Assembly (NCBI GenBank): GCA_028293825.1
Contig: JAQGNY010000021.1
Coordinates: 1-43,391 of the forward strand
From: Verrucomicrobiaceae bacterium
Lineage (GTDB): Bacteria; Pseudomonadota; Gammaproteobacteria; Pseudomonadales; CAMLJR01
Direction: 5' to 3'
DNA length: 43,391 nucleotides
Part shown: positions 60 to 23,910 of the stretch, in pieces
Layout of the letters: each line of letters starts with the position of its first letter
How positions within the stretch are numbered: the stretch's first letter is position 1
Translations under genes and position numbers: made by a program
Notes under the pieces: generated by a model
The model's input: only the letters and a program-made list of their open reading frames with translations
Told to the model about the DNA's origin: nothing
The model's database searches: none

Positions 60-127
60 GTCCATTCTCCGGTTCGAAAATGGACTTTACTAAATCACCC
101 GTGGCACTGTTTAGTGGGGGCAGGTCA
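1..127 (-). mobile_element. End of an IS3-family insertion sequence
   Basis: The transposase reading frame runs off the left edge. The outer boundary is marked by a terminal sequence that reads TGACCTGCCCCC on the minus strand (116-127), typical of IS3-family terminal repeats. Between this repeat and the transposase start lie the usual short leader and a GGAG ribosome site. Only one end is visible, so completeness, target duplication and exact subgroup cannot be judged. Confidence 0.85.
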
Positions 128-404
128 CAAAGCTGCCAATGGCGAACGCTGATACACCTGAGTTAAACCAAAAAACACTCGGCTCTGTGAGACATATCGC
201 ACGAATGGTGACGGTAATCACCTCTAGTACGTGGCTTAGTTTTCATTAAAATTACCCGCATCACGGAGGTGATCAACTGCTCGAACGGATTAGAGCGTGA
301 CAGGGATGTTTACTTCTAAAAGGGAAGTCCAAAAAAGCCGCTTTATCTCATCGTCGCACTACCATTGATCGTTCGATCCGTGTTGCCAGCAAGAGGACAC
401 TTAT

Positions 405-6779: not shown

Positions 6780-7535
6780 ATGCGCCCCGCTTATTTTGAT
6801 CGTTACCCCACTATCCATTTTGAACGCGATGCGCAGGGAATTTTGTTGATGCGCCTGCACAGCAATGACGGGCCGGTTGTTTACTCGTCGCAACATCATT
6901 CCGATTGGTGCGGCGCTTTTCACGATGTCGGCTGCGATCGCGGCAATAAAGTGGTAATCCTCACCGGCACCGGTGATGAATTCATCACGCAGTTTGGTTG
7001 GGATAAGCAGTTGAGCACGGCCGAAGATTGGGACGAGACGTATTGGGAAGGCAAGAACATGCTGCGCAATCTGCTCAATATTGAAGTTCCGATTATCGGT
7101 GTCGTTAACGGGCCCGCCACCATTCACGCTGAATTGGCGGTGTTATCGGATATCACGCTGGCCGCCACTCACGCCACCTTTCAGGATATGCCGCACACAA
7201 CCTTCGGCGTCGTTCCCGGTGATGGTGTGCATATTGTTTGGCAGGATCTGCTGGGCTCGAATCGCGGTCGTTATTTTTTGCTGACCGGTCAAACCCTTTC
7301 CGCCGAAGAAGCATTTAACCTCGGTGTGATTAACGAAATTTTGCCACCCGATCAATTACTACCGCGCGCCTATGCAGTAGCTCACAAGCTGGCTGCGCTG
7401 CCTGTGCTGACGCTGCGCTATTCGCGGGTCGCACTGACGCAACGCCTACGACGTCTGCTGGAAGAAAATTTGGGTTACGGGTTAGCGCTCGAAGGACTCG
7501 CCGCGTTGGGTTTGGTGCAATCGCAAAAAAAATAA
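6780..7535 (+). CDS. Crotonase-fold beta-diketone hydrolase, 6-oxocamphor hydrolase-like
   Basis: 251 residues, crotonase superfamily. Compared from memory with CamK (6-oxocamphor hydrolase of Rhodococcus), the proteins align nearly without gaps. Shared blocks include NKVVILTGTG (57-66), FQDxPH (134-139), VVPGDG (144-149) and LGSNRGRYFLLTG (158-170). The CamK active-site residues have counterparts: His122 as His116, His145 as His139, Asp154 as Asp148 and Glu244 as Glu238; Trp40 is Tyr35. Crotonase CoA hydratases lack this set. CamK cleaves the C-C bond of a cyclic beta-diketone by retro-Claisen hydrolysis, giving a keto acid. AGGAG stands six bases before the ATG. It follows the MarR gene and lies opposite the GMC oxidoreductase. 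The true substrate is unknown. Confidence 0.85.
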   Translation: MRPAYFDRYPTIHFERDAQGILLMRLHSNDGPVVYSSQHHSDWCGAFHDVGCDRGNKVVILTGTGDEFITQFGWDKQLSTAEDWDETYWEGKNMLRNLLNIEVPIIGVVNGPATIHAELAVLSDITLAATHATFQDMPHTTFGVVPGDGVHIVWQDLLGSNRGRYFLLTGQTLSAEEAFNLGVINEILPPDQLLPRAYAVAHKLAALPVLTLRYSRVALTQRLRRLLEENLGYGLALEGLAALGLVQSQKK

Positions 7536-10422: not shown

Positions 10423-12792
10423 TCAAAGCAGCGTGAGTTGGCGGCTTACTAATGCCGCAAAGTCGTCGCCGACGAACGGCAAAATGGCGTCGGCAATCGG
10501 TTGTAATTGCCGAGTAAGGTAGTGCTCGTAATCGATTGGCGCGCGCCGAATTTCTAACGGCTCGGGCCCAGCAGTGGTGATGACATAACTGATCCAGCCA
10601 CGGTTTTGATACTGTTCTGGACGTCCTAGCTGGCGATTGTGTTCGTCGGCAATACGGGCAGCGCGCACATGCGGTGGCATGTTATGCGGATAGTCATCCA
10701 GCGAGCGACGTAAACGTTTGCGATAGATTAGAAGCTCGTCCAGCTCACCTGCTAGGGTGCGGCGCACGTACTCCCGCACATAGGTCTGATGTGGCTGCTC
10801 AGTAAAGATGAGCCGGTAAAGTTCCTGCTGAAACTGTTGCGCCAGGGGCGACCAATCCGAGCGCACCGTTTCCAGTCCTTTAAAAATTAATTCGTCGCTG
10901 CCGTCGGCACGTCGAACTGAGCCGGCATAACGCTTTTTACTGCCCTCTTCGGCGCCGCGCAATGTCGGCATGAGAAAGCGCCGGTAGTGGCTTTCGTATT
11001 GCAGTTCCAGTGCATTCTGTACACCGAACTCACGCTGCACGTAGTCGCGCCAAAACGTATTAATGGTGTGAACCAACTCGCGGCCAATTACTGCGGCCGC
11101 TTCTTCGTCATGCGCTTGACCCAACCAGACAAACGTTGAGTCGGTATCGCCATAAATTACCGAGTAGCCCGCGTGTTCGATAAGCTTGCGCGTCTGCTGC
11201 ATGATTTCGTGACCGCGCAAGGTAATCGATGTAGCCAGGCGCGGATCGAAGAACCGGCAGCCGCTGGACCCGAGCACGCCGTATAGCGCATTCATGATGA
11301 TTTTTAACGCCTGCGATAGTGGTTTATTGCCATCGCGTTTGGCGACCTCCCGACCTCGCGAGATCCGTTCGACAATCACCGGCAAACAATGCCGCAGGCG
11401 TGAAAAGCGCGCACCGCGAAAGCCCGCTATGGAGTGCTCATCATCGGGTTCACGCATTCCTTCGATTAAACCCACTGGATCGATCAAGAAAGTGCGAATG
11501 ATCGATGGATAGAGGCTTTTGTAGTCCAGCACCACCACCGAATCGTACAAGCCGGGTCGTGAGTCCATAACGAAACCGCCGGGGCTCGCTTCGGGCGGCT
11601 TTTCGCCAAGATGGGGCGCGACAAAGCCGAGGCGATGCATGGCCGGCAGATAGAGGTGGGTGAAGGCCGCCACTGAACCACCGCTGCGATCAGCAGGCAG
11701 GCCGGTAACCGCCGCTCGCTCCAGCAAAAAATCGATCAGTTGCGTCTTCGCAAATAGGCGGGTGACGAGCTCGCAATCTTTGAGGTTGTAGCGCGCGAGC
11801 GCCGGCTTGTCCTCGACGAACATCCGGTTAATGGCGTCCATGCGCTGATACGGTGTATCAATCGCTTTGCCCTCGCCCAGTAATGTCTGCGCGACATGTT
11901 CCAAGCTGAACGATGCGAAGCTCCAGGTGGCCGACCGCAATGCTTCGATACCATCGATAAGCAGTCGCCCCGCTGCTGCCGCGAAGCCGTGATTGCGATT
12001 GGGGTGTACGCGCCATTCCATTTCACGGCCGCCCCGGCCGAGAAGCAACGGAACCTGTAATCGTCTTGCGTGTTCCTGTAAAACGCGCAAATCGAACTGC
12101 ACTAAATTCCAACCGATGATGGCATCGGGATCGTAGCGTGCTAACCATTCGTTTAAGCGCTCGATCAACTGCGTATGGCTGGCGCAGTACTCTAATTGGA
12201 AGTCCAGCTTGGGAGCGTCGTCAGTGGCAGTCCCCAACATATAAACCTGGCGTTCGCCGCAGCCCTCCAATGCGATCGAGTACAACTCGCCCCGCTCACT
12301 GGTTTCAATGTCCAGCGAGACTAAGCGGAGATGGGGTCGATAGTCCGGGGCAGGCTTCATCCAGCCATCAACGAGGACGTCGTCTTTGCTCGGCGTACCG
12401 CCAAATTGCACGGGAGCCGTGATGAACCGCTCCATCAAAAAGCGATCCGGAGGCCGAATATCGGCCTCATAAACATCGATACCCTGCGCGCGCAGTTGCT
12501 GGTCGAGTTTGATGAGTTGGCGGTGAAAACGGCAGTAGAGACCGACTACCGGACGGTGCTGAAAATCGCTCAGATCCAAGGTCCGCCATTTGATGGCGCG
12601 CTCATCTTTCAGCAGTGCCTCGGCCTGCGCGCGTTGGCTGCTAGGAATGAAGGCGACCGACGACTGCAATGCCAAACGGACCAAGCGCGGACCACTATCC
12701 GTTGCCAACCAAAATTCGACCTCGGTTCCTGTGGGCGTATCGCGCCAATGACGGGTTAGAACAAAGCCGCGCTGACCATCTAACTCAGAAAT
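10423..12792 (-). CDS. polB: DNA polymerase II (family B), apparently with an ATT start codon
   Basis: SOS-linked replicative-restart and bypass polymerase with 3'-5' proofreading. Numbered from ATT it has 789 residues (E. coli 783). Exonuclease motifs: DIE at about 161-163, [11 protein letters not shown], and YNLKDCELV. Polymerase motifs: [11 protein letters not shown] (about 423); [10 protein letters not shown] (about 497); C, YGDTDST (about 547). All catalytic residues are present. The first standard start codon in frame is TTG at 12708, but the 28 codons upstream still read as PolB ([20 protein letters not shown] matches the E. coli N-terminus). In that upstream stretch the only start-like codon with a ribosome site is ATT at 12792, nine bases after GGAG. 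ATT is chosen on that basis. Confidence 0.9.
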
Positions 12793-15282: not shown

Positions 15283-15528
15283 TCTGCTGTCCGCCTCCAG
15301 AAATGCCTCGCTCGATTTAATTATCGCGCCGTTGAATGCGCGCCCGCCCAAGGCATAACAATGCGGCGAGGATCATGAAGGCGTCGTGATACGACCAGCG
15401 CGAACATTTTTACCCAAGCTTTAAAAAAGCTACGTTAATTCGCCCTGGCCGCGGACGCGCGCTATAATTTTTTGTCAGCCCGCGCAGCTCGTTCGCGTAA
15501 ATCCTAAAATAATTAGGCAGGACCTGTG

Positions 15529-16155
15529 ATGCAAGATCCGTTGGCGCCCGTGGTGCATTTAATAGACGACGACAGTATTCTGCTTGAGGTACTGAGCGAG
15601 CTGGTTGCTTCCATCAATGTCAAAACAGTGCCGTATCGCTCCGCGCGCGCCTTTCTCGACAGTTATAAACCAGCCCCCTGCGAATGTGTCGTCTCCGATA
15701 TTCGCATGCCCGAAATTACCGGCTTGGAGCTGCAGCGCGTCGTTAGTAATTCCTACCGCGTACCCCCGCCGATTATTTTTGTCACCGGCTATGCCGATGT
15801 CAGTGCCGCGGTGGAAGCGATGAAAAATGGCGCTTATGATTTTGTCGAAAAACCGGTCAGTGGCGCCGTATTTTTGGAGAAAATTAACGGCGCGTTAAAA
15901 CTGAGCCGCCAACTGCACACACAGCGCGTGGATGCGTCGGTTCGCTCCGCCCGCATTGCGTTGCTGACACCGAAAGAACGTGAAGTATTGCAGCAGCTCG
16001 TAAAGCGACAAACCAATCGCGAGATGGGCGAAACGCTCGGTCTTAGCGTGCGCACGATTGAAAACCATCGTGCACATATTCTCGCGAAATTTCGCGTCAA
16101 AGATACCTACGAATTACTCGCCCTTTTTACTCAGCCGACACCGTTAGATATTTAG
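15529..16155 (+). CDS. FixJ/NarL-type response regulator (REC + LuxR HTH)
   Basis: About 208 residues. The receiver domain (about 8-125) has the acidic pair in HLIDDDS, the phospho-acceptor Asp in VVSDIRMPEITG and the conserved Lys in FVEKPVS. After a linker comes a LuxR-type helix-turn-helix (about 145-200; LTPKEREVLQQLVKRQTNRE and LSVRTIENHRAHILAKFRVK). The layout matches FixJ and similar one-receiver activators. AGGCAGG precedes the ATG at 15529; a GTG one codon earlier is less likely. No cognate kinase is adjacent; the hybrid kinase ending at 20794 is the nearest. Confidence 0.93.
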   Translation: MQDPLAPVVHLIDDDSILLEVLSELVASINVKTVPYRSARAFLDSYKPAPCECVVSDIRMPEITGLELQRVVSNSYRVPPPIIFVTGYADVSAAVEAMKNGAYDFVEKPVSGAVFLEKINGALKLSRQLHTQRVDASVRSARIALLTPKEREVLQQLVKRQTNREMGETLGLSVRTIENHRAHILAKFRVKDTYELLALFTQPTPLDI

Positions 16156-16271
16156 ACCCTCGCATTTTCTGAGTAGTGCTACGTAGATCCACGTGGATTT
16201 ACTACTCTGGCAACTCGACCTTGCGACGACCAGAATACCAGCCTCTATTTGTTGCTGTGGCTATTTGCGCC

Positions 16272-16697
16272 ATGTACCGCACTTTCAAATCTGCCGTCTT
16301 TTCGAGCTCCGTGTTGTGGGCGTCTCTCATTTTTTTAACGGCCTGTGATTTTTCCACCTCCGATAACCGCCTTAAGCAACAGGCGCGCGGACCGATACTA
16401 AAAGTCCACTCGATGCGTGAAATTCAGGATTCGTTACGCGACATTCTCAACACCACCGCGGATGTATCGCGGCGCAAACAGATTCTGCTCGGCATGGAAC
16501 GCATCATCGCAGACAGCACCGATGACCAGGCCTATTTACATCAATTACATTTGCAAACGGGTATCGACGATTACACGCCGATACTCTCGACCGTCGCTAT
16601 TGCGCAAATGATCCGACAAGACGAGCGCATTCGTTACGCCATGCTCGATAAAGAAGCGGCTGATTTTATTCGCGCAAGCACACGGCCCATCCATTAG
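16272..16697 (+). CDS. Small putative lipoprotein
   Basis: About 141 residues from the ATG at 16272, chosen because it gives a clean lipoprotein signal: MYRTFK, a hydrophobic stretch, then the lipobox LTAC, so Cys25 would be lipidated. Residue +2 is Asp, an inner-membrane retention signal in enterobacteria. The mature part is helical and charged, with no recognised domain. It lies between the response regulator and the STAS-CheA chimera in the same direction and may be an accessory envelope part of this signalling block. Confidence 0.6.
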   Translation: MYRTFKSAVFSSSVLWASLIFLTACDFSTSDNRLKQQARGPILKVHSMREIQDSLRDILNTTADVSRRKQILLGMERIIADSTDDQAYLHQLHLQTGIDDYTPILSTVAIAQMIRQDERIRYAMLDKEAADFIRASTRPIH

Positions 16698-16825
16698 ATC
16701 GGCGCCGATGCCGGCGCGCGCATCGCTACCAAGTAGCACTACTCAAGCGCATTGAGTAATCGCACTCTCGTTGAATTAGTCGTTATCGACAACACTGCGC
16801 TACGTAATTCGCAGGGAGAAACGCG

Positions 16826-17308
16826 ATGTCTGTGCATATTATTCGAGAACAAAAACGCACGCGTCTGATCTTCGCCGGAGCGCTCACCATTTACGAAACG
16901 GGTTCAGTTCGCAACACGATGCTCGATGTCTTGAGTGAATCCCGACCGATAGAAATGGATCTTGCCGGCGTGACCGAAATCGACATGAGCGGTGTGCAAT
17001 TGCTGCTGACGCTACGCGGCGAGAGCAATCTGCAATTTGTTGCCGGTACCAATACCGTTGTTACCCGTACGTTATTACAGCTGCTCAATTTGCAGCAGTC
17101 GCTCGAACAGCATACCGGGAATTGCAGGCGGGTAATTAAACCGCTCGGACAACTCTTGCGCGGTGTCAGTGGTTTTAGCGGCTCTACCATTCTTGGCGAT
17201 GGCAGTGTGGCACTGCTACTCGATGTGCCGACACTACTGGCGCATGCGAGCCGGTGCGATGGCGAATTAACCCACGCTTTAAAGAGCTATCACGCTAACG
17301 AACGTTAA
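16826..17308 (+). CDS. STAS domain fused to the C-terminal end of CheA
   Basis: 160 residues. The first 90 or so form an STAS fold with [20 protein letters not shown], where Ser corresponds to the usual phosphorylated or contact residue. From about residue 103 the sequence changes to [20 protein letters not shown] then [16 protein letters not shown], which is the end of the CheW-like P5 domain of CheA. No HPt, dimerisation or ATPase domain is present. Stand-alone STAS proteins commonly precede cheY-cheA in alternative chemosensory operons, so the simplest reading is an in-frame deletion joining the STAS gene to the 3' end of cheA. It is followed 26 bases later by the MCP gene. The ORF is intact and may still be expressed. 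Confidence 0.85.
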
Positions 17309-17334: not shown

Positions 17335-18999
17335 ATGCAGTGGTTTATGAAATTGAAACTGGGACAAAAGCTGATTACCACCTTCGTGTGTGGCGCCGCA
17401 TTGACCGCCATCGTCGGTGGCTATGCGTTGACCCGTATCGCGGTGGTGGGCGGCCTGTTGCACGCGATGTACGCCAATAACTTGGTTGCGGTGCAACAAC
17501 TCGGCATAGCCGGTCAGCGCTTTGTCGTCCATACGCGCGGTGTGGGTCGTCTGCCGATGCAGAATCAAGCCGATGCTGACGCCACACTCGATCGGTTGAA
17601 AACACATTGGGCCGATATGCAAAAGCAAATGAATGCGTATCGCACCACACTGCTCAGCGATGTCGAAACCGGTCTTCTAAAAGAAATCGATACCCAAACG
17701 CCACTGTATCTGCACCAGGTTGATCAAGTGCGCGATTTGGCGCGGGCGAATAAAACCGCCGATGCGGTTCGTTTGATTAATACCGAGCTGCGGCAGACAT
17801 CGGGAAAAATCGAAGAGAGCTTTACGGCGTTGATGAATGAAAACAGTAGCCAGGGCCAACGCGCTGACGAGAACGCGGCGCAGCAAATCAAGCAAATGGA
17901 ATACACCATGGCGGCGGCCATTACTGCGGCCGTCATATTGGCTATTGCGTTCGGTCTTATCGTTACACGCATCATCACGCGGCAACTCGGTGGTGAACCC
18001 GACTACGCGGCCGCCGTGGTAGGACGCGTGGCGAGCGGCGACTTAACCGTGCAAATCGAATTACAAAAAAACGATAACACGAGTTTGCTCGCAGCGATGC
18101 GCAGCATGCTTGAGCGTCTCACCGCCATTATCGGCGAAGTGCGCAATTCGGCCGAGGGTTTGGCCGCTGCCTCTGAACAGGTTTCCGCCGCCTCCACCAT
18201 ATTGAGTCAGAACTCTTCAGAACAAGCGGCCAGCGTTGAAGAAACCAGTGCGTCGATGGAGCAGTTGTCCGCCACCGTCGCCCAGAATGCCGAAAATGCC
18301 GAAAATGCCGAAATAACAGATTCGATTGCGTCCCAATCATCGGCCGATGCCAGTGAAGGCGGCACCGCTGTGCGCGAAACCGTTGCCGCAATGAAAGCGA
18401 TCGCGGAAAAAATCAGCATCATTGATGACATTGCCTATCAGACTAATTTGTTAGCGCTCAATGCCGCGATTGAAGCCGCGCGTGCTGGCGATCATGGTCG
18501 CGGCTTCGCCGTGGTGGCCGCTGAAGTGCGCAAACTGGCCGAACGCTCGCAAGTTGCAGCACATGAAATTGGCGACCTTGCCGGCTCCAGCGTCAGCCTC
18601 GCTGGACGCGCTGGACTCCTGCTGTCTGACCTGGTGCCATCGATTGGTAAAACCGCCGATTTGGTGAAAGAAATCGCCGCTGCTTCGCAAGAACAGCGCA
18701 GTGGTCTCAGTCAAATCAATGTCGCTGTGGCTGAGTTATCAAAAGCGACGCAGGTCAATGCGACGGCATCGGAGGAACTATCTGCCACCTCGGAAGAAAT
18801 GAGCGCGCAAGCGGCGCAACTGCAGCAAATGACGCAATTCTTCAAAACGGGCGCTCAACCTTCCGTCGACAGTGTTGTTTCAAAACCAGCGGTAACGCAG
18901 CGGAAAAATAGGCGCCTCGGTGCGGTTGCAACGTCGACTGCGTTGCCCGGCAATGAGTCGCCTGATGATATGGCCGAAAGCCAATTCGTAAGATTCTGA
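17335..18999 (+). CDS. Methyl-accepting chemotaxis protein
   Basis: 554 residues. Transmembrane helix 1 lies at about 12-33, then a periplasmic four-helix-bundle sensor (about 34-185), helix 2 (about 190-212), a HAMP domain (about 213-265) and the cytoplasmic signalling coiled coil. The hairpin tip is intact ([43 protein letters not shown]), so CheW/CheA contacts are preserved. No CheR-binding pentapeptide is at the C-terminus. AAGGAG precedes the ATG, and cheW begins just after the stop. A 9-bp tandem repeat adds NAENAENAE in the adaptation helix, where relatives have one NAE/NAD unit. The normal partner CheA is missing nearby. Confidence 0.95.
18286..18312 (+). repeat. 9-bp tandem repeat in the MCP gene
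   Basis: Three exact copies of AATGCCGAA encode Asn-Ala-Glu three times. The unit keeps the frame but inserts a non-heptad number of residues in a coiled-coil arm. Confidence 0.9.
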
Positions 19000-19008
19000 G
19001 GTGCTGTG

Positions 19009-19500
19009 ATGGATCAGGAAAATTCTCAATATCTGCTGTTCAGTCTGGGCCATGAAACCTTTGGCATTGCCATCGGCGCCGTGCGCGAAATCATTGAATA
19101 CCCGAGCTTGACCACCCTTCCGCTAACCCCCGCGTTTATGCGCGGCGTAATCAATTTGCGTGGCGCGGTGGTACCGGTTGTCGATCTCTCGGCGCGTTTC
19201 GGTCGGCAGGCGACGATTATCGGCCGCCGCAGTTGTGTGGTGGTGATCGAGCCTCCCGCGGATGGACAGCATCGCCCCCTCGGTATCGTCGTCGACGGCG
19301 TGACCGAAGTAGTCCGCGTTGGTCCTTCGCAAATTGGTCAGCGCCCCCAATTCGGCAACGGACTGCGGGCGGATTTTGTCACTTGCGTCTTAAAACGCGA
19401 CAGTGGCTTTGTGATGATTCTCGATTTACCCGCGGTGCTGTCGTTCGCGGAGCTGGAGCAACTGGTTACCCAACCGCTGGCGAAAGTCGCCAGCGCTTAA
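19009..19500 (+). CDS. cheW: CheW chemotaxis coupling protein
   Basis: About 163 residues, a single CheW domain. It opens with YLLFSLGHETFGIAIGAVRE, has the RGVINLRGAVVPVVDLSARF core that contacts CheA and the receptor tip, and ends with the VTCVLKRDSGFVMILDLPAVL strand. CheW normally bridges MCP arrays to CheA; here the kinase is missing from the cluster. The ATG at 19009 has GAGG seven bases upstream; a GTG one codon earlier is less likely. It begins only nine bases after the MCP stop, so the two are co-transcribed. Confidence 0.94.
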   Translation: MDQENSQYLLFSLGHETFGIAIGAVREIIEYPSLTTLPLTPAFMRGVINLRGAVVPVVDLSARFGRQATIIGRRSCVVVIEPPADGQHRPLGIVVDGVTEVVRVGPSQIGQRPQFGNGLRADFVTCVLKRDSGFVMILDLPAVLSFAELEQLVTQPLAKVASA

Positions 19501-19529
19501 AATTTTTCTCAAACATACTTGAGGTTTAC

Positions 19530-20768
19530 ATGCTGAGTCCCGTGATCAAACAGCAAGGCGCATTGGTCGTTGAAGACAATGCCCTGCAACGAGCCAGCAC
19601 CGTGCGAGCATTGCGGCGCGTCGGCATAACCACACTGCACGAAGCCGAAAACGGCATTGCCGCACTGACGGTCATCGATCGTTTGCTGGTGCCACCGGCC
19701 ATCGTGGTGCTGGATCTCGATATGCCCGGCATGGATGGTATCGAACTCGTGCAGCAGTTGGCCGCCAACAACTATCGACCGGCGATTATTATCGCCAGCA
19801 ATGCCGACACGATTTTAATCAGCGCGGTCGAAACGATTGTCAGCGAATTAAAAATGCCGTTGCTGGGCTCGACAAAAAAACCATTACTCGACACGTTTCT
19901 CATCGAAGCGTTGAGCTGCTTCGATCAAGGTCTGCATCAACAATGCGAGACCGTGCTCGAGCGCGTCGTGCTGACCCCCGAGCATTTACAACACGCGCTC
20001 ACTCACGGTGAAATTCAGGCGCATTACCAGCCCAAAATTGCCGTGCACAACAGCACATTGGCTGGTGTCGAAGCGCTGGCACGCTGGCACAGTGACCGCT
20101 GGGGTTCGATTATACCGGCGCGATTTATTCCGCTGGCAGAACAGTTCGGACTTATCAATCAATTGACCCTGTGTATTATCGATACGGTGCTCGCAGATAT
20201 GCGCAACTGGCGCCAAAGTGGTATCGATCTGCCGGTATCAATTAATTTGTCCGCGCGGTCATTAGCCGACCCCGATTTTTTAGAACAAATGCTCGCGCGC
20301 ATCGAAGCCGCTGCCATCCGCCCACAATCGATTGTATTTGAGATTACCGAAAGTACGTTATTCAGCGACACGATAACATCGCTGGTCGCGGTCAGTCGGT
20401 TGCGGCTGAAGGGCTTTGGCGTTTCATTGGACGACTACGGCACCGGGTTTTCGTCGGTGCAGCAGTTATCCAAAATCCCCTTTACTGAATTAAAAATAGA
20501 TCGATCATTCGTCAGTGGCGCACCGTATAAAGAGCATTTGCGCACGATCCTGCAATCGTCGATTGAAATGGGTAAGCGGCTGGGTTTGCGCACTGTTGCC
20601 GAGGGCGTAGAAACCTTGGCCGAGTTACGGCTATTACAGAAACTCCACTGCGATGAAATTCAGGGCTATTTATTCGCGCGACCGATGCCGAGCAGCGATT
20701 TAAAAGACTGGTTCAATCACGACCAGGGTTGCGTGCGCGATATCTGTCGGCAAGGTACGGCGAATTAG
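19530..20768 (+). CDS. REC-EAL c-di-GMP phosphodiesterase (VieA/RocR-like)
   Basis: 412 residues from the ATG at 19530, which has GAGG five bases upstream. An open frame further left only overlaps cheW. The receiver (about 8-130) has the acidic pair in LVVEDN, the acceptor Asp in VVLDLDMPGMDG and Lys in GSTKKPLL. The EAL domain (about 150-400) is catalytically complete: EAL in GVEALARW, INLSARSL, FEITES, DDYGTGFSS and AEGVET. It should hydrolyse c-di-GMP under phosphorylation control. It ends the chemosensory operon and converges with a hybrid kinase that has an HPt domain, a possible phosphate donor. It opposes the cyclase at 13142 in activity. Confidence 0.93.
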   Translation: MLSPVIKQQGALVVEDNALQRASTVRALRRVGITTLHEAENGIAALTVIDRLLVPPAIVVLDLDMPGMDGIELVQQLAANNYRPAIIIASNADTILISAVETIVSELKMPLLGSTKKPLLDTFLIEALSCFDQGLHQQCETVLERVVLTPEHLQHALTHGEIQAHYQPKIAVHNSTLAGVEALARWHSDRWGSIIPARFIPLAEQFGLINQLTLCIIDTVLADMRNWRQSGIDLPVSINLSARSLADPDFLEQMLARIEAAAIRPQSIVFEITESTLFSDTITSLVAVSRLRLKGFGVSLDDYGTGFSSVQQLSKIPFTELKIDRSFVSGAPYKEHLRTILQSSIEMGKRLGLRTVAEGVETLAELRLLQKLHCDEIQGYLFARPMPSSDLKDWFNHDQGCVRDICRQGTAN

Positions 20769-20793: not shown

Positions 20794-23700
20794 CTAAACG
20801 CGTTGGGCAAGGCCCAACGCGCCCAACAAGGGCCGCAACCCATCGATTAGGCGTGCCACCTCGGTATTGAAAGCAGCGAGTTGTTCGCGATCAATGTGCT
20901 CGGTTTCTAAATCACGCTCGATTCCCGCACAAATTTTTTGCAGCCCCTGCGCACCAATCGTTCCTGCGAGCGACTTCAGCGAATGCACCAAATGCATTGC
21001 AGCAGCGAAATCGCCGAGTTGTAGCGCGACCGCAAATTGTTGCGGCAAGTCGGCACGCTCCTCGACAAAGCGCTGCATAATTCGCGCGTACAACGATTCG
21101 CGGCCCAGTAATAAATTTATCGCTTTGGCGGTGTCGAGTCCCAATGCCTGTAACTGCGTATGCGGCAACCCATGCTCGCGCACGCCGTCATTTAATGGCG
21201 CAGCGTCGAGCGATCGCGGCTGACCGAGCCAATGGCTCAATGTCGCCAGTAATTGTGCGGGCTCGATGGGCTTAGCCACGTAATCGTTCATGCCGGCTTC
21301 AAGACAGCGCTCGCGGTCGCCTGGCAATGCATTCGCGGTCATTGCAATAATTAACGGCTGCGCGTTGGCACTATCAGCGCGGATCGCGCGTGTCGCGGCA
21401 ACACCATCGAGCACCGGCATTTGCATATCCATCAACACCACATCGAATGTTTCCGCCTTTACCATTTGCACAGCCTCGGCACCGTTATTGGCTACGCTGA
21501 CCTGTGTGCCGAATGAACGCAGAATCGCAACAGCCACCTCCTGATTGATGTCGTTGTCCTCAACCAGCAATACCCGTTTATGGCTAAGATCGATCAAGTC
21601 GATAGCGCCACGCGCAATGACGTGACGCGGTGCACCACTATAATTCTGCAGTTCGGGTTGCTCCGCCGCCGCCAGAGCGACTTCAAAGGTAAACGTACTG
21701 CCGACGCCAAGGGCGCTGCGCGCAGAAATAGTACCGCCCAACAGCTCCGCCAAACTTTTACAAATCGCCAATCCCAAACCGGTGCCTTCGAACTGGCGGG
21801 TCGATGAATTATCGACCTGGGAAAAAGGTTTAAACAGTTGCTGCAATGACGCGTCCGAGATTCCCAGACCGGTATCGCTCACGGCAAAGCGCAAGGTGAT
21901 GAAATCTGCCTCAGTTCCGGCTGTACTGACACCCAAGGTCACGCCACCGGTTTGGGTAAACTTCACCGCGTTACTGCAAAAATTAATCAGGATCTGACCG
22001 ATGCGCAGCGAGTCGCCAATAAACGCCATCGGTAAATGCGGATCGAGCTCAACCTGCAACTGCAAACCTTTTTCGTCCGCTTTATCACCGACAAAATCAA
22101 TCACGTGTCCAATGAGCTGCTGCAACGAAAATGGCGCATTGTCGAGCGTGAGCTTGCCCGCTTCAATTTTCGAATAATCTAAAATCGAATTGATAATGCC
22201 GAGTAGGTGTTGCCCTGCATTACGAATTTTTTCGACATAATTGCGCGCCTGTGATGGCAGTGTGCCGTTTAATGCAAGATAGGACATCCCGATAATTGCA
22301 TTCATCGGGGTGCGGATTTCATGGCTCATATTGGCGAGGAAATCCGACTTCGCGCGCGCACCGGCTTCTGCAGCGTCGCGCGCCTCGGCCAGCTCCTTGG
22401 TGCGATTATCAACGCGTATTTCTAAATCGCGATTGAGTGTTTCCAATTCGTGCTGGGCCTGGACCTGCACCGAAATATCGCTCACCACCATACCGACACC
22501 AATCACCTCGGTTTCATCGACATTTTTAACCGGAAAGCTGAGAATACTTACCGTCACACCGGTATGGGGAAAATAATGGATGAGTGTGGTCAACGCGCCG
22601 CAACGCAACGCTTTTTTATGTTCACCGACATAAATTTTCGCCACTTCCGTACTGCACAATTCCCAATCCGTTTTACCACTCGATTCACCGGGGGCAGTGC
22701 CGCGCAATTCTTCAAAAGCGCGATTCGCCATTTGGATAACACCATCGACATCGCGCAGCACAGTGCCATTCGGCGAATGTTCGCGGAAGGCCCTATGCTG
22801 CATTTCACTTTGCATTAAATTTTGCCGCACTCTGCGTTGAAAGATGGTCAGAAAAATAATCAGCGCAGCCGCTACCGCGGTAAATCCCCACACCGCATAG
22901 CGAGAAATTTGCGACGCGTAAAATGCCTCTGCCCAATCCTCTTCAACGACCACGCCCATATCCATTTCGGGCAACCATCGACCGGCTCCCACCACCGGCT
23001 TACCGCGATAGTCCGGGTAATTTTCCAGATAGCCGGTGTTGGCGCTTTTAGTCTGCAACAAACGCTCGGCCACCAAAGTTAAGGGGGCGGTGTTTAACGG
23101 TCCATTTTGCTGTTTCGCGCCGTTGGGCACTCGTTGCATTGCCGGTTCACGCGCAAATAGGTGATAGGCGCTCCACCCCGACTCAAACGCCTTGAGCTTT
23201 TTGATGTTCTCCTCGAAGCGGCTGGGCGACAAAATACGGCCAGTGCCGTCGACGACATACGCTTCTCCGGTTTCTCCGGTTCGCGCGGCCTCGAGTAATT
23301 TAAACAGGCGAAGTGTGGGATCGGAGCGTAGGCACAGAAAGCCCACCACACTGTCGTGAAGGACGATGCGCGCACAGGCCAGTTGATACAGAGTGCCTTG
23401 CGGCCGTGGGTGGCCATCATCGATAACGGGGCGTTGCGACGAGACGGGTGGGGAGTCTGACGCGCCATACACCAGCGCGCGCTGCATTGCCGCTTTGCCC
23501 AGCGGCGTTGCCGGCTGGCCGACATAGGCGGGACTGGAGGCCGCGACGATTACGTAATCACGATTGATGATGCTGTAACCGACAAAACCGCGACTGCGAT
23601 AACTGGTGGTAATCCAAGCGGCCAAGGCGCTGGTGGCCGATTGATCTGCGGGGGCGGCGATTACTGCATTCGCCAGTATCACCAGTTCATTCGTTTCCGC

Positions 23701-23910
23701 GATCACGCGCACTCGGTCGATATCGTCCTCGGACATCAGTTTGATCAGACTGGCAATCGAGTCGAGATTCGCCATTATGTGATTCGAGACATAGCGGCGA
23801 TCGGCTGATTTAATGACATCGATAATGGCTATGCTCAACAGAATGAGCACGATGACAGAAGCGGCGGTAACGATAGCGGGAACTGTTTTTTTTATGGTTT
23901 GAATGTTCAT
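20794..23910 (-). CDS. Hybrid sensor histidine kinase with Cache-like sensor, PAS, REC and HPt
   Basis: 1038 residues. Transmembrane helices at about 10-32 and 338-357 enclose a periplasmic Cache-like sensor of about 300 residues. Then come PAS (about 370-485), a coiled coil, and the histidine kinase with H530 in NMSHEIRTPMNAIIG. The ATPase boxes are CSNAVKFT, SDTGLGI and GTGLGLAIC. The receiver has the acceptor D828 in VVLMDMQMPVLDG and Lys in VAKPIEP. The C-terminal HPt has H976 in HSLKSLAG. The BarA-like layout allows His-Asp-His relay to a separate regulator. The facing REC-EAL protein and the FixJ-type regulator at 15529 both lack a cognate kinase in this window, so either could be its target. 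A 9-bp hairpin covers its 3' end. Confidence 0.94.
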   Translation of the reverse strand: MNIQTIKKTVPAIVTAASVIVLILLSIAIIDVIKSADRRYVSNHIMANLDSIASLIKLMSEDDIDRVRVIAETNELVILANAVIAAPADQSATSALAAWITTSYRSRGFVGYSIINRDYVIVAASSPAYVGQPATPLGKAAMQRALVYGASDSPPVSSQRPVIDDGHPRPQGTLYQLACARIVLHDSVVGFLCLRSDPTLRLFKLLEAARTGETGEAYVVDGTGRILSPSRFEENIKKLKAFESGWSAYHLFAREPAMQRVPNGAKQQNGPLNTAPLTLVAERLLQTKSANTGYLENYPDYRGKPVVGAGRWLPEMDMGVVVEEDWAEAFYASQISRYAVWGFTAVAAALIIFLTIFQRRVRQNLMQSEMQHRAFREHSPNGTVLRDVDGVIQMANRAFEELRGTAPGESSGKTDWELCSTEVAKIYVGEHKKALRCGALTTLIHYFPHTGVTVSILSFPVKNVDETEVIGVGMVVSDISVQVQAQHELETLNRDLEIRVDNRTKELAEARDAAEAGARAKSDFLANMSHEIRTPMNAIIGMSYLALNGTLPSQARNYVEKIRNAGQHLLGIINSILDYSKIEAGKLTLDNAPFSLQQLIGHVIDFVGDKADEKGLQLQVELDPHLPMAFIGDSLRIGQILINFCSNAVKFTQTGGVTLGVSTAGTEADFITLRFAVSDTGLGISDASLQQLFKPFSQVDNSSTRQFEGTGLGLAICKSLAELLGGTISARSALGVGSTFTFEVALAAAEQPELQNYSGAPRHVIARGAIDLIDLSHKRVLLVEDNDINQEVAVAILRSFGTQVSVANNGAEAVQMVKAETFDVVLMDMQMPVLDGVAATRAIRADSANAQPLIIAMTANALPGDRERCLEAGMNDYVAKPIEPAQLLATLSHWLGQPRSLDAAPLNDGVREHGLPHTQLQALGLDTAKAINLLLGRESLYARIMQRFVEERADLPQQFAVALQLGDFAAAMHLVHSLKSLAGTIGAQGLQKICAGIERDLETEHIDREQLAAFNTEVARLIDGLRPLLGALGLAQRV
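20800..20820 (-). terminator. Hairpin at the 3' end of the hybrid kinase gene
   Basis: GCGTTGGGC (20800-20808) and GCCCAACGC (20812-20820) form a perfect 9-bp stem with a 3-base loop, inside the last codons of the kinase between two convergent genes. Downstream on the minus strand is only a loose T-rich stretch (GTTTAGCGAGATTGTTTTAA). It may terminate leftward transcription or just block read-through. Confidence 0.5.

Follow-up and report, generated by a model that had tools for sequence, protein, structure and literature searches.

A STAS protein joined in frame to the end of CheA in a chemosensory gene cluster that is probably being dismantled

The DNA that we analyzed (the window) is a stretch of 43,391 nucleotides, and it comprises the whole of one contig (C9) of a draft genome of 4.34 Mb in 56 contigs. 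It harbors a chemosensory gene cluster (Table 1) that is headed by a FixJ-type response regulator, followed by a putative lipoprotein, a 160-residue protein in which a STAS domain runs into the end of CheA, a membrane chemoreceptor (MCP), CheW and a REC-EAL protein, with a hybrid histidine kinase encoded on the other strand. The FixJ-type regulator, CheW, REC-EAL and the hybrid kinase have uninterrupted reading frames and preserved domains and motifs; the regulator retains its phospho-Asp motif (SDIRMP) and EKP, and REC-EAL retains EALARW, FEITES, DDYGTGFSS, KIDRSF and AEGVET. Near the chemosensory remnant, at 10423-12708 on the reverse strand, lies a gene for a family B DNA polymerase (Pol II-like, as judged by eye).

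Table 1. Features of the chemosensory cluster in the window, with one comparable locus from another genome
Feature	Position	Strand	Details
FixJ-type response regulator (REC + LuxR-type HTH), first cluster gene	15526..16155	+	Pfam: Response_reg E 6e-20, GerE E 6e-13
Palindrome, copy 1, TGAGTAGTGCTACGTA	16170..16185	.	2 mismatches to TGAGTAGNNCTACTCA; 14 bp past FixJ gene
Small putative lipoprotein	16272..16697	+	ORF 16176-16697, in-frame ATG at 16272; LTAC lipobox-like by eye
Palindrome, copy 2, CAAGTAGCACTACTCA	16730..16745	.	2 mismatches; 80 bp before fusion gene
STAS–CheA P5 fusion ORF	16826-17308	+	160 aa, ATG start
STAS part of fusion, residues 1-97	16826..17116	+	Pfam, alignment to relatives, AlphaFold
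CheA P5 stub, G98-R160	17117..17308	+	Recognizable V103 to about L138; Pfam, NCBIfam, tblastn, AlphaFold
Membrane chemoreceptor (4HB_MCP_1 + MCPsignal)	17335..18999	+	Pfam E 3e-35 (MCPsignal) and 5e-22
Three tandem copies of AATGCCGAA	18286..18312	+	Extra 9-bp copy adds 3 residues (NAENAENAE) in MCP hairpin N-arm
CheW	19006..19500	+	Pfam E 9e-35
Site of cheR in relatives	19501..19529	.	29 bp here between CheW and REC-EAL
REC-EAL, candidate c-di-GMP phosphodiesterase	19530..20768	+	Pfam: EAL E 1e-70, Response_reg E 1e-13
Hybrid histidine kinase (HisKA-HATPase-REC-Hpt)	20794..23910	-	Pfam
L083 P5 remnant	L083:1858-2403		182-aa frame; Acidobacteria bacterium isolate gp1 AA134, MAG contig of 6.8 kb

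The start of the fusion ORF is closely preceded by a purine-rich AGGGAGA, read by eye in the DNA. By Pfam, residues 17-88 match STAS_2 (E 1.1e-7; 32.4 bits against a cut-off of 29.2), whilst the older STAS family just misses (21.3 against 22.6 bits); the STAS_2 score and the STAS-like elements predicted at high confidence (see below) place this part among STAS domains. Residues 97-141 match the CheW-like family, that is, the P5 fold (E 1.1e-5; 25.6 bits against a cut-off of 23.5). This second match spans just profile positions 89-137 of 138, well short of the complete CheW-like double barrel of P5 (about 138 profile positions), and the sole further Pfam match, to DUF3851, is weak and below its cut-off. 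The Hpt (P1), dimerization (P3) and ATPase (P4) domains of a CheA histidine kinase are absent from the 160-residue protein by Pfam. An NCBIfam alignment equates residues 94-138 with CheA positions 613-657 of 670, and by tblastn the nearest CheA among the best 80 of 480 confirmed places matches at 64% in its best segment (residues 93-146). Alignment to the families by Pfam, NCBIfam and tblastn thus bears out an initial annotation, made from the letters of the sequence, that a STAS domain is joined in frame to the end of CheA P5.

The limits of the two parts could be drawn more closely. Because in both of the nearest intact clusters, L040 and L043, the STAS protein stops eight residues past an LLNL motif, and the STAS part in the window reaches the equal point at T97, we assign STAS to about residue 97, and not to residue 90 as annotated. 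After T97, the alignment reads G98-N-C-R-R where CheA has G-E-x-Q-A, and then V103-I-K-P; the join therefore lies between about 97 and 103. Homology to CheA is firm from V103 (from G98 at the earliest), which agrees with the annotated start of P5, and is recognizable to about 138-139. The annotation had allowed that residues 103-160 might not be P5; residues 103-139 do align to it, and residues 140-160 gave no firm alignment to anything. Judged by these alignments, the predicted product combines a complete STAS protein with the terminal piece of CheA P5 in a single frame.

The relatives' loci come from tblastn scans of one genome per species, of which the best 80 of 480 confirmed places were used. 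Across intact relatives, the fuller gene order is FixJ-type regulator, soluble MCP, CheY, STAS, CheA, MCP, CheW, CheR, REC-EAL, hybrid kinase. L040 follows it from the FixJ-type regulator to REC-EAL, and L043, from the same taxonomic order as L040 and the window, has FixJ, an unrelated reverse-strand ORF, STAS, CheA, MCP, CheW, CheR, REC-EAL and the hybrid kinase; L041 and L049 carry an extra CheB-like gene with a response-regulator start between CheR and REC-EAL. The FixJ-type regulator of the window is 52% identical to that heading L040 and 59% to that heading L043, and its MCP is 63% and 61% identical, respectively. The hybrid kinase is 39% identical to the L043 kinase over an alignment of 1032; in L043 it adjoins REC-EAL, whereas here it lies on the opposite strand. 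The soluble MCP and cheY are absent from the window cluster, and the putative lipoprotein gene stands there instead; it gave no Pfam family below E 0.1, no tblastn match at 1e-4 in L040-L119, and no second DNA copy in its own genome.

As annotated, no HPt, dimerization or ATPase part of CheA is present in the window, where Hpt and ATPase domains occur solely in the hybrid kinase. We found no remnant of the cheA core at the fusion site and none of cheR in the 29 bp at its site; weak matches elsewhere fall in CheW, in the hybrid kinase, or have E above 0.001. Of the components of an F-class chemosensory system, the receptor and CheW are present, and a CheA of its own and a cheR within the cluster are missing. 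The annotated view that the genes beyond the fusion are intact holds for the domains and motifs of CheW and REC-EAL, but not for the cluster as a whole: cheR is missing and the MCP carries a three-residue insertion. Both changes, and the palindrome described below, had escaped the annotation.

In L040 and L043, STAS ends 9-10 bp before cheA. Projected onto L043, the deletion would begin at the stop codon of STAS (6195) and reach about 8015, or ~1.82 kb of cheA. That spacing, and the lack of an orphan core, support the annotated origin in an in-frame deletion that removed most of cheA and joined STAS to the end of P5, as far as can be read from sequence. The annotation also had this deletion take cheY, which does not fit: where cheY is present in relatives' clusters it lies 5' of STAS, and L043 has no cheY between FixJ and STAS, so the fusing deletion need not have touched it. 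The sole congener compared, G001 (89% complete), showed no such cluster; what matched there, on C113 and C49, were hybrid kinases, a paralogue of FixJ (39%) and another CheA, 42% identical over part of its length. At about 60% protein identity, the relatives are in our judgment too distant for dN/dS.

Elsewhere in the window's own genome, CheA-like genes are located on C20, C45, C27, C19 and C55, and the edge of C49 carries the N-terminal piece of a CheA. The C49 piece (90-371, reverse strand) and the CheA without an N-terminus at the start of C55 (1-1515, forward strand) are probably one gene split by the assembly. None of these is an orphan CheA core that fits the window cluster. The best candidate, on C20, is 54% identical to the L040 CheA over 257-659 and sits within a complete cluster of its own (soluble MCP, CheY, STAS, CheA, MCP, CheW, CheR, then genes that by eye are CheD- and CheB-like). 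The C20 system thus shares the soluble MCP, CheY, STAS, CheA, MCP, CheW, CheR order of the fuller cluster, but is a separate, paralogous system whose proteins are about 31-48% identical to those of the window. The best match to CheR is also on C20 (44%), and other CheR genes occur elsewhere in the genome.

These data bear on the explanation that the real genome has the missing cheA and that the contig lost it during assembly. The genome is a draft in 56 contigs, and a paralogous cluster could confuse an assembler. Yet a single 43.4-kb contig contains the join, the stub resembles L040-type CheA most closely and not that of C20 or C45 (best 80 of 480 places), no free core of an L040-type CheA is found on other contigs, and, with cheR missing and the MCP altered, more than one error would be needed. 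We therefore regard an assembly artifact as most improbable.

Among the matches listed, the fusion was seen in this genome alone: we found no other STAS fusion in 95 relatives, in 390 genomes of the order (E up to 1e-11) or in 369 genomes of the class (E up to 1e-13), samples that overlap and each include the window's own genome, and none in the best 80 of 480 confirmed places. The annotation had counted a STAS-tail form that is widespread and ancient, with an intact cheA beside it, as evidence against its view; the matches listed include no such form. Judging by titles and the starts of abstracts, searches of open-licence PubMed Central brought up no paper on a STAS-CheA fusion, an absence that carries little weight. 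Other damaged cheA loci do exist. Within the same 80 loci, the frame holding the CheA tail is below 450 residues in seven, of which three are at a contig edge and four (L057, L045, L083 and L107) are not, and 77 have a kinase core 5' of the tail, the exceptions being L070, L117 (off contig) and L083. In L057 (Pseudomonas thermotolerans DSM 14292), an in-frame stop at 6996-6998 in the cheA linker before the dimerization domain is either a real truncation or a draft error; in L045 (Herbaspirillum lusitanum P6-12), ~1 kb of unmatched DNA (936-1921) separates CheA positions 347 and 361, which looks like an interrupted gene; and L107 has a frame change in cheA.

L083 stands apart from these. Its frame holds about two thirds of P5 (CheW profile 34-135) with no kinase core upstream, and is preceded by a stretch weakly like the end of an ADP-ribosylglycohydrolase (below the family cut-off) and an unrelated 456-residue frame; MCP, CheW and CheR follow. 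L083 may record another kinase loss, independent of the one in the window, or the contig may be chimeric. As a P5 remnant without a kinase, it suggests that leftovers of this kind may have more than one origin.

The stub is well preserved. Counted by eye, residues 103-138 are identical to L040 at 31 of 36 positions, as compared with 32 of 36 between L040 and L043, and the stub keeps 15 of the 16 columns that are invariant in 30 intact P5 sequences; four of these columns (VIKP) were the selection condition for the P5 rows, and without them 11 of 12 are kept. Lost in the fusion are an invariant Gln and a nearly invariant Glu just ahead of V103 (GNCRR in place of GE-x-QA). Such preservation fits a recent deletion or some constraint equally.

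An AlphaFold model of the intact L043 P5 (30 alignment rows; mean pLDDT 81) has ten strands from residue 31 on, and the stub accounts for the last helix, two whole strands and the end of another; the stub-equivalent residues have block means of 84-90, with one loop block at 61. The fusion was folded with alignment A4 (23 STAS rows and three stub rows); alignments A1 and A3 had been rejected, as they placed C-terminal halves of STAS proteins onto the stub. Its STAS part was confident (ten-residue block means of 72-94 over residues 1-100), with the elements E2-7, E12-20, H22-36, E42-52, H54-66, E69-72 and H78-97 predicted at high confidence. Block means over residues 101-160 dropped to 45-74, with residues 114-129 below 50; with three stub rows in the alignment, this low confidence is partly an effect of alignment depth and no proof of disorder. 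The stub is predicted to be mostly unfolded in the fusion, and, since seven of ten P5 strands are lost, the models make a P5-like contact with CheW unlikely.

The annotation had left a choice between a dead cluster and a new adaptor, in which the stub docks on CheW or on receptor tips and presents STAS in the kinase's place. Several observations favor an adaptor: the stub is nearly unchanged at conserved positions, the fusion gene has a plausible start and lies 80 bp downstream of a palindrome, the MCP and CheW genes lie directly 3' of it, and in L083 a second kinase-less P5 end, on an unrelated gene, precedes MCP and CheW. They are opposed by how little is left of P5 (of its ten strands two and a piece of another, plus the final helix), by the prediction that this remainder is mostly unfolded, by the loss of the Gln and Glu before V103, and by the occurrence of the fusion in one genome alone among the matches listed. 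Consequently, the adaptor half of that choice draws little support, and we hold it to be very unlikely. A fuller version, in which the P5 end completes or caps a CheW ring or touches receptor tips, and so ties a STAS switch to a receptor array whose output can do without a kinase and has REC-EAL as its effector, also seems very unlikely.

The receptor itself is altered. Between two landmarks, the N-arm of its hairpin measures 73 residues, against 70 in all 40 measurable homologues, whilst the C-arm measures 110 residues in the window and in 59 of 59 homologues (the scan covered 121 MCP-like ORFs in 84 records, and 81 of these ORFs gave no N-arm reading). Nor does the insertion occur in the receptors that the same genome encodes on C20 and C34. 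According to passages in PMC5907407, natural length changes of the receptor hairpin are symmetric seven-residue steps; a one-sided step of three residues would therefore be expected, from sequence, to disturb signaling, though it may be tolerated. The C-terminal pentapeptide, QFVRF, matches the CheR-tether motif x-[HFYW]-x2-[HFYW] given for receptor C-termini in part of PMC7184735, as does DFVRF of the C20 receptor, so a CheR from elsewhere could still serve.

Another possible reading is that the operon is reduced but working, with its MCP and CheW serving as extra inputs to the CheA of C20 and relying on the C20 adaptation enzymes. The C20 system is complete and similarly laid out, both receptors end in FVRF, and a kinase-less half cluster of Campylobacterota must, according to the part of PMC9239204 that describes it, work with the species' only class. 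The unbalanced insertion, however, should shift the hairpin register relative to the C20 receptors, and the window CheW is just 43% identical to the C20 CheW over 162 positions. We consider this arrangement unlikely.

The two palindromes flank the putative lipoprotein gene. The pattern was noticed first and tested afterwards. Of the 13 loci with a FixJ match before cheY or cheA, three (L041:4359, L049:4353 and L057:4373) have TGAGTAGTTCTACTCA without mismatch after the FixJ-type gene. Each copy in the window has two mismatches; two or fewer occurred in 4 of 1680 random 1100-bp draws from the same loci, and all four were perfect copies and probably true sites. L040 and L111 have copies with three mismatches, which are weak (three or fewer in 41 of 1680 draws), and L043, L096, L102 and G029 have no convincing copy. 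Pseudomonas loci with a more distant FixJ (27-30%) have TAGGTAAAACTACCTA, or one letter off it, at the equivalent place (L109:3882, L118:3875, L114:3908 and L115:4177). The shared core is GTA-four bases-TAC, and the flanks differ between the FixJ groups, which is what a site belonging to the regulator should show. The exact core is not common: the window's own genome has it at one other place, on C50, as compared with nine occurrences per strand of a backward control pattern. On this pattern, the palindrome is a probable operator of the chemosensory operon family. We had also considered that 13-bp inverted repeats mark a small mobile element, and rejected this given that the stretch has no second copy in the genome and the repeat is a palindrome that follows FixJ in three relatives.

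Rates of change relative to L043 were higher in the window for CheW (excess 0.24, interval 0.12-0.35) and for FixJ (0.21, 0.06-0.39); the excess for the MCP is small and excludes zero (0.07, 0.03-0.12), and no clear difference emerged for the stub, STAS, REC-EAL or the hybrid kinase. L057 was left out of the stub set, as its CheA ORF, ended by the early stop, gave the wrong stretch. Decay confined to the chemosensory genes is not borne out, FixJ being accelerated as well as CheW. The rates neither prove nor refute a partly dismantled operon with its output side in use.

With cheA, cheR and an MCP arm hit, the soluble MCP and cheY absent, and the output genes kept, the simplest reading is a partly dismantled system. 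We consider it likely that the fusion is an in-frame deletion product in a STAS-CheA-MCP-CheW-CheR operon that is being dismantled and whose output side looks intact. Against this speak the good preservation of the stub and the uninterrupted frames of the other genes that are left. The kinase core and the methyltransferase would have been lost and the receptor would carry a one-sided hairpin insertion, leaving the coupling protein, this receptor and an intact-looking output side of FixJ-type regulator, hybrid kinase and REC-EAL. The hybrid kinase and its Hpt might pass phosphate to FixJ, to REC-EAL, or to both; FixJ, bound at the palindrome, could drive the shortened operon; and REC-EAL, through breakdown of c-di-GMP, may be the product that selection keeps and perhaps the reason why the operon persists. 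The STAS domain might still fold and retain its earlier role, the P5 stub most likely does nothing, and MCP and CheW would be idle or ride on the intact paralogous CheA of C20.

So read, the locus offers a snapshot of a chemosensory system coming apart, in which the kinase and the methyltransferase are gone and the receptor is altered, and a regulator, its likely operator and a c-di-GMP output remain. Should the receptor and CheW still be functional, the locus could be used to ask whether a receptor whose own kinase is lost can pass to a paralogous kinase. The palindrome after the FixJ-type gene is, in addition, a testable candidate control element for the intact family.

The closest known systems are the STAS-CheA-MCP-CheW-CheR clusters, mostly of Gamma- and Betaproteobacteria (L040, L043, L041, L049, L057, L097 and L104), which share with the window, in equal order, the FixJ-type gene (in some), STAS, a pentapeptide-bearing MCP, CheW, REC-EAL and the hybrid kinase. 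The window differs from them in having no cheA core, cheR, soluble MCP or cheY, in the strand of the hybrid kinase, and in the three added MCP residues. The F8 cluster of Pseudomonas syringae has a pentapeptide-bearing receptor and its CheR, according to part of PMC11253619, and passages in PMC9321776 and PMC7184735 place the F8 receptor in class 34H; by analogy, the STAS-CheA cluster family is possibly class F8. A precedent for the reduction is the half F9 cluster of Campylobacterota, which, in the part of PMC9239204 that describes it, has kept a receptor and CheW, like the window, and has lost its own kinase and response regulator. That cluster keeps CheB and CheR, and the same part describes no STAS-P5 fusion for it, whereas in the window CheR is gone and REC-EAL is present. 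Reduction of this type is thus already known from the Campylobacterota half cluster, and the STAS-P5 by-product is, among the matches listed, seen here alone.
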